This document shows positions 46,004 to 50,934 of a stretch of 64,000 nt of DNA, piece by piece. Every line of letters begins with the position of its first letter. The stretch's first letter is position 1. Origin of the DNA: Cavenderia fasciculata (taxonomy: Eukaryota > Evosea > Eumycetozoa > Acytosteliales > Cavenderiaceae); assembly GCF_000203815.1 (NCBI RefSeq), contig NW_004457729.1, positions 3,162,674-3,226,673 on the forward strand, given 5' to 3'. The position numbers and the translations under genes were made by a program. The notes beneath the pieces are model-generated. The model was not told the origin of the DNA. It saw only the letters and a program-made list of their open reading frames with translations, and made no database searches.

Positions 46004-49000
46004 ATGGTAAGAGTCAATTGTGATTATATTCCTGCGTGGCCAATTGTATACTATGTCAAGAAATCTTATACCATTTTACATTTATTATGGCCTGCTATAA
46101 CATGGTATGTAACCATAAATACATACATACAATATAATTATATCAGATGATTTAGTTAATAATATTTTGTTTTTTTAGGAAAGAATCAAAAAATGGAAAT
46201 AAGGTATTTGCATTCTTTTATATATTTTTTAGATTGGCATGGAACGAGAGTAAAGAGACACAGTTTGTTGATTTCTTTTGGCCAATCATTCATTTAGAGT
46301 ATAGTGGACGTGGATTTCGGTTTGGAATCCGTCCATTGTTTTGGATTATATCGACCGATCGAACGTTTAAACTGACGCTGCTGGGTATATTTACGATAGT
46401 GTCCAAGAATGACGGAGACGATATATGGGTGGTACTATTCCCCTTTATATGGTATAGGTACAAGAATGGAAGGTCGCTGTTTACACTGTTGGGTATCTTT
46501 TGGTTGATTTCCAATACTGTCAGGTTCCGGCTGTTTTTAGTGCCGTTCCTAATGCTAAGCAAGTCACGTAATGGTGAAGGATTCTGGTTTAATCTAGCAC
46601 TACTGCTACATGTCGTGAATAGTGATAAGAGGTTCTATATGCATATACTACCATTCCTATTTATTCATAGAAAGGTTAGTAATGGAACAACACACGTTAA
46701 TATAGCTGGACTGTTCCATGTGATGACAACGGACAGTAAACGGTTCTATATGCACATACTCCCATTCCTATTCATCAACCGAAAGTCTAGTGGCACGTTA
46801 CACGTCAACTTTATGGTTGTTATGCATTACCGTCGTACTAGCAGTGGAACGTTGTTTGTGTTGGCACCATTCCTCTTTGTGTATCATGGTACGTCCAACT
46901 TTTTCCTCTTTATCGTTCCCCTCTTACTTGTTAGCCGGTCGAAATCACGTAATATGTATATTGTCGCGTTTATCTATTACAGAATCGTCAAACTTGTTAA
47001 AGAACGTACATTCACATTGCTATTACCCGTGTTTGTGCATTGGACCAATGGAGACGACTACTTTGTCAACGTGTTGGCCTTGTTTACGCAAAAGTATGAT
47101 GCGGGAGACAGCAACCGCTTCACGCTGCTGTTCCCCTTTTTGTGGATACGTAAACATGAGGGTCACTCATTCATGTTCCATTTGTGGCCGTTGTTTGGGT
47201 ACAAGGTGTCGTACAAGGAGGGTGGTGGCTACAACATCTACATCATGTACCCCGTGTTTATCTACAAACGCAAGCAGAATGGCCAGCTCACTCGCTGCTA
47301 CTGCTTCTATCCACTCGGATACTACTACAACGACCGTGACGACAAAAAGTTCAAAGTACACGCATTCCCATTCTTTTTCTACTCCAATATGCGTGGTATT
47401 ACAAAGGGAGTGGTGTTGCTGTACTTTTGGTACACCGATCCTGGCCGCGCACCAACACGAACTATCGACGAGTCGTCGGGTGATACACAACCCACGTATG
47501 CATCATCACCCGATGAGTTGGCCGTCCGCGCATTCATCCCACTCTTTTTCTTTGTCACCAAGACTGGTGGCAACAAGCTCATCGTCCTCCTCCCACTATT
47601 CATATGTCGCTGGAAATCAGATGTTGTCAACAGTCTCTTCCTCTCGCTCATCTACTACCAACGTCGTCGCGACGAAGAAGTCACCCGTTGGCTATTGCCC
47701 GTGTTTTACCAAAAACATACGTTCCATCGCGACCTTGTCCTCTCGCCGATATACGTGCGCTGGCGCAAGGACGCCAACTCGGTCATGATCGTCGTGCCCG
47801 TCTACATTGACGTTGTCAAGGCCGAGACACACCTGCGTGTCATTACCTTCCCCATCGTCGTCTATTATCGCAAGACTATCTTTAAATTTGTCACCATCTT
47901 CCCCTTCTTTTTCCGAACACAAGATGCATCCAAGAACGAGCTGTTTACCTATATATTCCCCATCTTTGGTCGGTCGACCAGCGGCTCGGCACAGCGCAGC
48001 CACTATGTACTCTTCCCACTCTTTAGATGGCGCGTCGATGAAGAGAAGGAGTCCAAGGCCATCGATATCATCTTCCCTCTCTTCCACTTTGATCGCAGCC
48101 CGCTTGGATACTCGCTGCGTCTACTCCCCTTCTTTTGGAGATCGGTCAGCGAAGAAAATGAGTTTACCCTGGTCATGCCATTCTTTTGGCGCTTTGTCAC
48201 CGACAAGACCACGCGTGCTCAGAGCAACACCCTCTTCTTGCCATTCTACTTTAAACGTGACTCTGCGCAATACGAGTTCACCTTTGCCTCGCCCGCACTC
48301 TTGCCCCCCTACTATGTGCACTACCATCGCGAAGCCAGCCAGGTCGAGCAGACCTATGTCTTCCCATTCTACGCGCACAAGATCAAGGGACTAGACCATC
48401 TGCGTTGGTTCCTACTCGTCCTCTACCGTCACAGCTGGCGCGACTTTTCCGACAACATGTTTATGAACATTCTCCTCTTTTTCAAGTATGTCAAAGATGA
48501 CACGAATATCATGGGTATCATCCCACTATTTATTCGTCGTCGTACAAAGATTACCCAACAAAAGGTTGATGATATGAATGGTGACACACCAAAGATTGAT
48601 GGAGGTGATATTGTTGTTGACAACAACCATCTCTCCAACTATGTTCCAGACACTGCTCTGTATAAATACCAACTACGTATCTTGTTGCTGTTGGCAGTTG
48701 ACAAGACATCTACTAGTCTCAAGAAATACACTCGCGTTGCATTGTTTTGGTTGGTGTCCAACAGAGTATCGTTGTTTACTTGGAGGCATAGTGTCAAGGT
48801 ATGCGACCTCGACGCCGACCTCAAAGTCAAGCGAAATGCCAGCAAGGTCGATTTGTTTGACACGCAACTCCCGTCCAAGGACATGGTCGAGATGGAAGAC
48901 ACGTACAAGGATCTTCCACCCACCAATATCATCAGTTCGACCAAGGTCTACCTCTGGCCACTCTTCCATGCCAAGAACAGAACCGATAACCTCGACAAAC

Positions 49001-50574
49001 TCAACTACTACCACTTTAGCATGTTCTGGATTGCCAAGCCTTGGCTCGCATTCTTCCACAGACTCAAGTCGGCTGAGGAATCCAAGGCATTTATGTTTTT
49101 GGTGTTTTATTATCGCGTGCAAGACCTGTGTCGCCACTTTGCCCTTCTCTGGCTGTTCAACCCTATCATCAGTTTGTTCCTTCGCGAGGCTACCCCATTC
49201 GCCGTCATCACTCGTCTTATTCCATTCTTTTGGCATTACAAGAGTAGTGAGTCACGCGAGTCAAAGAATCACCACAAAAATGGAGGATCACTCGACTCGA
49301 GTGTGGGAGCATCCAACAAACACCAGACTATCTTGTCGATTGTGTATATCGTCCCTCGATACGGACTCATCAACTACAACAACGATGAAGTCAACGGACA
49401 CTGTACACACTACTTTTTACCCGTCTATTATAGTTGTGTCACGGAACAGAGCAGAGTGTTTGCATTGCTCTGGTTTGCCATACCGCTCATCTCACTCTTT
49501 TACTACAAACGACATGATATGGATGGTAGCTACCACCGTCTCTTCCCAATCTACTATCGCAAGCATGACAAGACGTCCGAGTCAAGTCTCTTGTCAATCG
49601 TATGGATCGTGCATCCAGTGGTCGCCCTGTTCCGTGTCAACAAGTCACAAGCACACTCGATTGTCGCACTCTTCCCAGTGTTTTGGAAAAAGTCATCCCT
49701 TTGCAACGGCAACGACAAGTTCCATCTATCGCTACTCTACATTGTGCCACGATTCGGCTTCATTGACTATGCCATCGAAGAGTCACCAAGTGGCGACGAG
49801 ATTGGTATGCGCTTTTACATCCTCCTACTCTACTTTTTGGCCCGTGAGGATGGTCGCACCTACGTCAGTCTCATCTACCTTGTTCATCCCAAGGCATCGT
49901 TGTTGCGCGGTTGTTTCACTGCCAGTAAATCCAAACTGTTCATGTTCCCCTTTATCTACTATAAACGTGACACTGCTAAACTCAAAATGGCCCTGTCAAT
50001 CGTTTGGATTGGTAACCCTCGATTTGGATTCATCTCATACTGGTCTCAAAATGACGGTCAGTACACTCATTTCCACATCCCACTCGTTCTCTGGATATCG
50101 TCGATTGACGAGTACTATCAATGGGGTGTATTCTGGATCGCGTGTGCCAAGGCTAGTCAGTCTGGTAACCCATTCACCAACCAAAACCTTCCCAATGGAT
50201 GCTCACGTATTTCGAGTGTCTATTACCCCGTTTCACTCTTTATGTACTATTCCGATGGTCAGAACCTTTCCCATCACCTCATGCCAATCTATAGGTACCG
50301 ATACAAGACACGTGACGAAGCAGCCGTTCTCTGGGTGCTCCTCGGTGCCGTCTATCTCCTCGACAAACAAGATATCACCGAGTTTAGATTCTTTTATCGT
50401 TGGATCAAGGTCAAGTCGTCCGAGACTGTCTTTGTCCTCGAAGTCAACCCATTCGTCTCGATTCGTCGCAAACACGGTAAATCCCGTGTCCTCATCCTTG
50501 GTGGAATGTGTGGTGTCAAGGACAGTACCTACGGTTCAGGTTCTACATGTAATTTCTGTTGTATCGAATGTTAA
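46004..50574 (+). CDS. Giant aromatic repeat protein (1,498 residues), function unknown
   Basis: Exons 46004-46104 and 46179-50574 join in frame (TG|G encodes Trp34). Almost the whole protein is a tandem array of short, mostly beta-like units. About forty copies of a motif close to [LIF]-[FL]-P-[FLVI]-[FWY] recur every 20-25 residues, separated by charged turns: LLPVFVHW, LFPFLWIRKH, IFPLFHFDR, LLPFFWRS, VMPFFWRF. From about residue 980 a second type with a period near 43 takes over, pairing SIVWIVHPVVALF-like and LFPVFWKK-like strands. The ends are Cys-rich (CNFCCIEC). No signal peptide is evident. The hydrophobic strands are short and rich in Phe, Trp and Tyr, unlike membrane helices. I recognise no family. 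A long beta structure with a hydrophobic face, perhaps binding lipid or membrane, is inference. Codons are C-rich from about 47,000, suggesting good expression. Confidence 0.85.
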
Positions 50575-50934
50575 AAAAACAAATCTTAAATTAAATCATA
50601 AATCACAAATCAAAAACCAAAAAGCATCGTATAATCGTGCATCATGATGGTGCATGAATAATAATAAATTTTCAAATTATAATATTTATTTATTTGCATA
50701 TTTATATTTATGGATATGCAATCAGAGGTGGAAATATTTTTTTGATATTCAATAGTGATCACCATTTTCTCCTTTTGGATTATTAGATGGCATAGAGCTT
50801 GATTGATCATATTGATAACCTATGGGTTTGTCCATTTGTAACCATCCTCCTGTATTTCTTTCATCTATAAAAACTACCTATTCCATTAATGGTCATGATC
50901 AATCGATTAATAATTTTAGTACAAATTAAATAAA
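50575..50934. other. Spacer after the repeat-protein gene
   Basis: AT-rich 3' UTR sequence, including a short inverted repeat (GTGCATCATGATGGTGCATGA near 50637), and the end of the decayed minus-strand gene. No gene is seen. Confidence 0.4.

Follow-up and report, generated by a model that had tools for sequence, protein, structure and literature searches.

Long lipid-handling beta sheets of the eukaryotic cytosol are known from the VPS13, ATG2 and BLTP bridges, whose repeats differ in length and make-up from those described here, and single-layer antiparallel sheets from apoB-100, the CPAP G-box, OspA and the MORN proteins. In bacteria, a study of Veillonella (PMC10665443) proposes that MlaD spans the envelope and that MlaEFD is the ancestral core, MlaABC having arisen afterwards among Proteobacteria and phyla closely related to them. 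Here we report that a 64,000-nucleotide stretch of the Cavenderia fasciculata genome (contig NW_004457729.1, positions 3,162,674 to 3,226,673; hereafter the window) carries a gene for a repeat protein of 1,498 residues that is firmly homologous, as judged from sequence, to a bacterial family of FPLFW-repeat proteins. No sequence relation was found to the apoB-100 beta-belt, the CPAP G-box, the OspA sheet or the MORN repeats (Pfam to E 10 and PDB), and Pfam detected neither the vitellogenin-type N-terminal domain of apoB and other large lipid transfer proteins, nor the MORN motif, nor, with no match to E 10, the chorein/RBG domain of VPS13, ATG2 and BLTP.

The gene occupies positions 46004-50574 of the forward strand and encodes 1,498 codons and one stop in two exons, as put forward in a preliminary description and confirmed by the exon/intron model. 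In-frame stops lie just upstream of its ATG, and the intron is supported because a repeat unit continues across the splice junction, with YTILHLLWPAITW before it and KES after it. About forty copies of an aromatic, proline-centred strand motif had been counted in the protein, and they are real: the strict motif occurs 30 times (mean 2.4 and maximum 8 in 500 shuffles), a looser pattern 33 times, and a strand matrix built from 26 bacterial relatives recognizes 39 units (mean 2.5 and maximum 8 in 100 shuffles). Their spacing, originally given as 20-25 residues, is corrected to 17-21 by autocorrelation, the peaks of which include 17, 18 and 36 over residues 1-560. The second repeat type described from about residue 980 was recovered. 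It starts near residue 960-980 with a period of about 43 residues, the autocorrelation of proline and aromatic residues over 980-1498 has peaks including 43/44, and the strand matrix places second-type strands at residues 1115, 1157 and 1200. Long low-complexity runs are absent, as had been observed, the longest single-residue run being LLLL.

The suspicion that bacterial proteins with similar FPLF/W repeats might exist proved correct, and these proteins are homologous to the Cavenderia protein. Searching genome_contigs for a DNA pattern of two FP[LF][FY]W motifs 30-60 bases apart yielded 65 loci (numbered with the prefix L), of which 26, with 8-66 motif copies per open reading frame (ORF), were retained and 39 dropped; the next in line, L020 (5 copies) and L059 (4 copies), look like membrane proteins and were rejected. 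In a blastp comparison with 73 unique bacterial family ORFs of at least 200 residues, taken stop to stop and in some cases cut, the best match was L117, the full form of L037 from Nitrospirae bacterium GWC2_57_13 (contig MHDZ01000031.1), at 180 bits and E 2e-48 over 604 columns (residues 279-826 against 140-705 of L117). The second-best relative scored 98 bits and the reversed Cavenderia protein 53.5; without composition correction, the corresponding scores were 195, 126 and 67.0. Irregular landmarks, ALLPPY among them, keep their positions in the alignment with L117, and the strand unit and the order of landmarks are shared both with L117/L037 and with the long bacterial proteins L035, L047, L065 and L115. 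Units of the second type, with their period of about 43 residues, recur in L035, L043 and L066. In six frames of the window, this gene is the sole ORF that matches a bacterial profile (E 2.4e-34; runner-up 0.26).

When bacterial members served as queries, and with each query's own row counted, the Cavenderia protein ranked 8 of 74 for L117, 9 of 70 for L035, 19 of 72 for L115, 19 of 69 for L047 and 34 of 74 for L065. In a tree built from 26 rows across the core it stays unplaced (no starred set), with L117 nearest by path, and we therefore name no donor; a donor search in Chlamydiota gave weak matches only. About 74% of the positions aligned with L117 differ, and the Cavenderia gene has an intron. 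Taken together, the comparisons indicate that the protein is a divergent member of the family, nearest to the long bacterial type. Codon use is uninformative about its origin, as the GC content at third codon positions (0.57) lies inside the range of the other long ORFs of the window (0.22-0.74). A protein search of the organism's own genome (30,995,898 bases in 21 contigs) found no second copy, returning only the gene itself.

Both ends of the protein were compared with those of the bacterial relatives, the long members of which share with it a WP near the start and a C-terminal NPF...LGGLFG cap. A profile built from 10 bacterial proteins over their C-terminal 114 columns, with the Cavenderia protein left out, matches it at E 1.2e-35, the best domain (31.3 bits, residues 1388-1483) lying in register with the cap; the reversed protein reaches 8.8 bits in all and 10.8 in its best domain, and the best of 200 shuffles 4.6. 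The cap characterizes part of the family, in the form NPF/LGG(L/M), a C-terminal GG motif being present in 10 of the first 26 proteins, several others of which are cut. At the other end, exon 1 begins in a manner resembling the post-signal start of the bacterial proteins (xxWPxxYxxxx...LWP). An N-terminal profile of 40 bacterial stretches, located by the first WP that follows a hydrophobic run and in a few cases taken from cut ORFs, aligns from residue 9 with 19.2 bits. We treat this match as support and not as proof, because two inner stretches of the protein outscore it and the best control domains reach 14.1 (reversed protein) and 12.4 (shuffle).

The ends also differ. By look, the Cavenderia N-terminus has neither a signal peptide nor a lipobox, whereas L117, L035 and L115 start with a hydrophobic, signal-like stretch, as do several of the 26 proteins of the first search. 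With a simple script, a hydrophobic N-terminus or lipobox was found in 31 of 45 bacterial loci (lipobox 13, other hydrophobic 18), some of the remaining 14 being cut by contig ends, and a lipobox cysteine can be made out by eye in five of the 18 (L105, L107, L111, L120 and L133). A signal peptide or lipobox is a usual, not a defining, feature of the family, and homology rests on other features. An aromatic strand terminates L117 and L035 but not the Cavenderia protein, which closes with CNFCCIEC (50548-50571), four cysteines in the last eight residues, a tail absent from all four bacterial C-termini aligned. We would guess that this tail may be S-acylated or otherwise lipidated.

Record titles assign the 26 loci to Bacteroidota, Elusimicrobia, Planctomycetota, Nitrospirae, Myxococcota and Deltaproteobacteria, Lentisphaerae, Kiritimatiellae, Verrucomicrobia and one unclassified bacterium. 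The cap profile (A2) was clear in 3 of 119 Elusimicrobiota genomes, with a fourth only at E 0.005, and was found in 4 of 198 Nitrospirota and 39 of 294 Planctomycetota genomes; 3 of 116 Chlamydiota genomes matched weakly, at E about 0.007 only. A repeat profile (A3) was found in 37 of 235 genomes from the phylum to which L011 (Myxococcales by its record title) belongs. Peptide patterns had no match in viral_contigs, the plasmid search gave no family match, and the ORFs of L003, the single viral_contigs locus returned by a degenerate pattern, look unrelated. In Bacteroidota members (L022, L039, L014, L017 and L013), the strands are arranged in a higher-order repeat, about five to a group, spaced for example 17, 21, 17, 17, 19. 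The very regular FPFYW protein of the unclassified bacterium adjoins a 735-residue WD40 protein (L045, 1775-3979, reverse strand). In an Oscillatoria contig (L055, from 4730), 13 pattern matches about 140-155 bases apart occur with no motif-rich ORF and may represent a different type of tandem DNA repeat.

Existing models cover this family poorly. For the exon-2 protein, Pfam and NCBIfam gave no match up to E 10, with scan filters that drop most weak matches in the case of Pfam, a sequence search of the PDB returned no matching chain, and PHROGs yielded nothing usable (best E 0.31). NCBIfam model NF047486 (LA_1737_Cterm, a Leptospira locus name, function unstated) matched seven of the 15 bacterial sequences compared with it, including two forms of one gene, in every case under its curated cut-off of 60 bits (30.9-49.9 bits for L011, L035, L037/L117, L047, L065 and L115), and had no match in the other eight. 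A 266-residue piece of the Cavenderia protein scored 12.7 bits (E 0.089), below the same cut-off, and the whole exon had no match. Pfam scans of eight bacterial relatives gave matches under the curated cut-offs only, the nearest being CydS, at 24.8 bits against 25, on 15 residues of L045. No published account of the family was found in the literature searched, the reach of which excludes preprints and most subscription journals.

An indirect link to lipid transport comes from the surroundings of the family genes, taken from every one of the 39 Planctomycetota genomes (41 loci, of which several are truncated by contig ends). In 19 of the 39, MlaE directly follows the family gene on the same strand, the two genes ranging from overlapping to 261 bp apart, and its ATPase and MlaD are often present as well. 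Pfam confirmed MlaE, the ATP-binding cassette (ABC) ATPase and MlaD on example loci, PF02405 positions agree for all 19, and MlaD is present in 11 of the 19 stretches. Since each of these genomes has only 1-5 MlaE genes, we estimate the chance of such adjacency at about 1e-4 per locus; some of the 19 loci are near relatives and not independent. The linked proteins match the strand unit and the cap profile as the Cavenderia protein does, and some look like lipoproteins; 15 of the 19 ORFs measure only 410-644 residues, against 1,498 in Cavenderia. The envelope part of such a system might be supplied by a repeat protein, largely exported, that is encoded next to MlaEFD. The Nitrospirota and Elusimicrobiota loci showed no adjacent MlaE, and the 26 loci from the initial search neither MlaE nor MlaD. 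Ten neighbour genes outside Planctomycetota (glycosidases, a histidine kinase, WD40, radical SAM and others) share no theme. In a single case (L118, 8898-11974, reverse strand), the Elusimicrobia relative has an FtsX-type permease and an ABC ATPase one gene away.

AlphaFold2 models agree with the long beta structure anticipated from the repeats. The 298-residue piece 478-775 was predicted at medium confidence as all beta, without helices (mean predicted local distance difference test score, pLDDT, 69.6; predicted template modelling score, pTM, 0.45), and residues 1083-1498 as nearly all beta, at a confidence (43.1) too low to use. Among the matches listed, the solved folds scoring highest against the 298-residue model were the single-layer antiparallel sheets of apoB-100, CPAP, OspA and MORN; no VPS13/ATG2-type chain was among the 50 structural matches listed, which excludes nothing. 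The solenoid envisaged in the preliminary description is less likely than antiparallel hairpins, judging from strand spacings in the bacterial relatives (275 odd, 59 even). Nor was its single hydrophobic face supported: the motif is hydrophobic at -2, -1, +1 and +2 around the proline and aromatic at +3 in 58-67% of copies, so that both faces are hydrophobic there.

On this basis we tentatively favour, among the readings considered, a beta-meander of the cytosol with a lipid-binding, lipid-coating or lipid-conducting role, a divergent member of an otherwise bacterial and largely exported family. Each 17-21-residue unit would form a beta strand with a central proline and a turn, and successive units would most likely build a very long single-layer antiparallel meander, the aromatic strand centres of which may accommodate lipid acyl chains or rest against them. 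Some of the planctomycetal members probably act together with the MlaE-MlaF-MlaD phospholipid pump. The Cavenderia protein has kept the architecture from array start to cap without the export signal, and because the signal is absent and its genome gave no MlaE match, it probably acts alone in the cytosol, serving membranes as a sheet, coat or bridge that binds lipid. It would then resemble VPS13, ATG2 and BLTP in being a long cytosolic lipid-handling beta sheet. The lipid role first suggested for it thus retains an indirect connection to lipids, via the MlaE operons of some bacterial relatives; lipid handling is plausible, and a continuous hydrophobic groove conjectural.

Several observations weigh against this interpretation. 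The Cavenderia protein has no parity bias in its strand spacings (6 odd, 5 even), and MlaE was not found in its genome at E 0.01, which together slightly lower our confidence; in the window, MlaE, MlaD and ABC proteins had no tblastn match below E 0.7. The short planctomycetal members partner a bacterial ABC system that the Cavenderia genome seems to lack, and the Mla link is confined to Planctomycetota. Weaker, off-register alignments with L117 (75 and 67 bits) are also present, as in any repeat protein, the N-terminal profile scores higher on inner stretches (31.6 bits at 647-713 and 26.9 at 367-438), and the reversed protein still gives 27 units by the strand matrix, because the hydrophobic-proline-hydrophobic motif is nearly palindromic.

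The strongest competitor, which we consider rather unlikely, is that the protein belongs to the same family but is a structural scaffold of beta strands or a rod for protein interaction, like the MORN and OspA sheets, with the Mla neighbourhood peculiar to one bacterial subfamily. The planctomycetal restriction of that neighbourhood and the missing MlaE match speak for it, as do the scores of the CPAP G-box, OspA and MORN sheets, nearly as high as that of apoB, and the frequency of MORN proteins among viral structural matches, none of which reaches 1e-3. The strand centres, however, are hydrophobic and aromatic, unlike the polar faces of OspA and MORN. Distinctly less probable is a membrane-inserted beta structure, a giant barrel or bilayer-crossing sheet descended from an outer-membrane protein and perhaps now mitochondrial: one bacterial relative, L058, has 87 units by the strand matrix, more than in any barrel known to us, nearly every strand has a central proline, and the Cavenderia protein lacks an aromatic C-terminus. 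A polytopic alpha-helical membrane protein with short helices is very improbable; some 17-residue runs of the second array are free of charged and amide residues (for example VFALLWFAIPLISLFYY), but ordinary transmembrane helices, named in the preliminary description as evidence that would tell against it, did not emerge, Kyte-Doolittle hydropathy over 19 residues reaching 1.6 at only two peaks in 1,498 residues, and both the proline at nearly every centre and the beta models of the two stretches (the second at low confidence) oppose helices. Equally hard to credit is convergence of aromatic repeats with likeness in composition only, for which the bits and units of the reversed protein and the inner N-terminal profile scores might be cited, against 180 versus 53.5 bits, a cap in register at the C-terminus and colinear irregular landmarks.

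The features of the gene and the MlaE-linked loci are collected below. Neighbouring genes in the window are homopolymer-rich. Four open frames overlap the gene out of phase, one on the reverse strand (48673-49236, 187 residues) and three on the forward strand (46886-47788, 300 residues; 47924-48394, 156; 48578-50647, 689), and look like by-products of its higher GC content, not genes.

Features of the Cavenderia gene and protein (window positions), with the bacterial loci linked to MlaE
Feature	Position	Strand	Remarks
Exon 1	46004..46104	+	Residues 1-34, last codon split
GT-AG intron	46105..46178	+	74 bp
Exon 2	46179..50574	+	Residues 34-1498 and stop
Strand-turn array, 17-21-residue units, [LIV][FL]P[LFIV][FYW]	46028..48567	+	Residues ~9-830
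AlphaFold2-modelled stretch	47509..48402	+	Residues 478-775; pLDDT 69.6, pTM 0.45, all beta
Conserved core	47875..48447	+	Residues 600-790; colinearity with L117 extends to the irregular ALLPPY motif
More polar segment separating the arrays	48556..48942	+	Residues ~827-955; from sequence, no strand-matrix match there
Second array, ~43-residue units: VW[IL]VxPxxSLF long strand and LFPxFW strand	48946..50382	+	Residues ~957-1435
C-terminal cap, FRFFYRWIKVKSSETVFVLEVNPFVSIRRKHGKSRVLILGGMCGVKDS	50383..50526	+	Residues 1436-1483; in-register bacterial C-terminal profile match
Tail, TYGSGSTCNFCCIEC	50527..50571	+	Residues 1484-1498; replaces bacterial FRFLWLF-like end
19 MlaE-linked loci			L106-L108, L110, L111, L113, L120, L122, L127-L130, L136-L138, L140, L142, L143, L145

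A fuller history, which we hold to be doubtful, is that a eukaryotic lineage acquired from bacteria a lipid-transport protein of the envelope, which lost its export signal and gained the cysteine-rich tail, giving a cytosolic lipid bridge or belt of about 60 strands (by eye) unrelated in sequence to the VPS13 type; the bacterial family would then consist of undescribed lipid-conducting or lipid-coating beta-meanders, part of them serving MlaEFD. The findings connect a eukaryotic protein that had no database match with a bacterial family for which the searched libraries offer only one uncharacterized, Leptospira-named model, matched below its cut-off, and the recurrent operon with the MlaE phospholipid permease gives that family a first functional handle. 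The Cavenderia protein is a candidate for a new kind of eukaryotic lipid-handling protein. If the lipid-handling interpretation is true, it would add a lipid-handling fold to the eukaryotes and single out a candidate partner for planctomycetal MlaEFD in the envelope.

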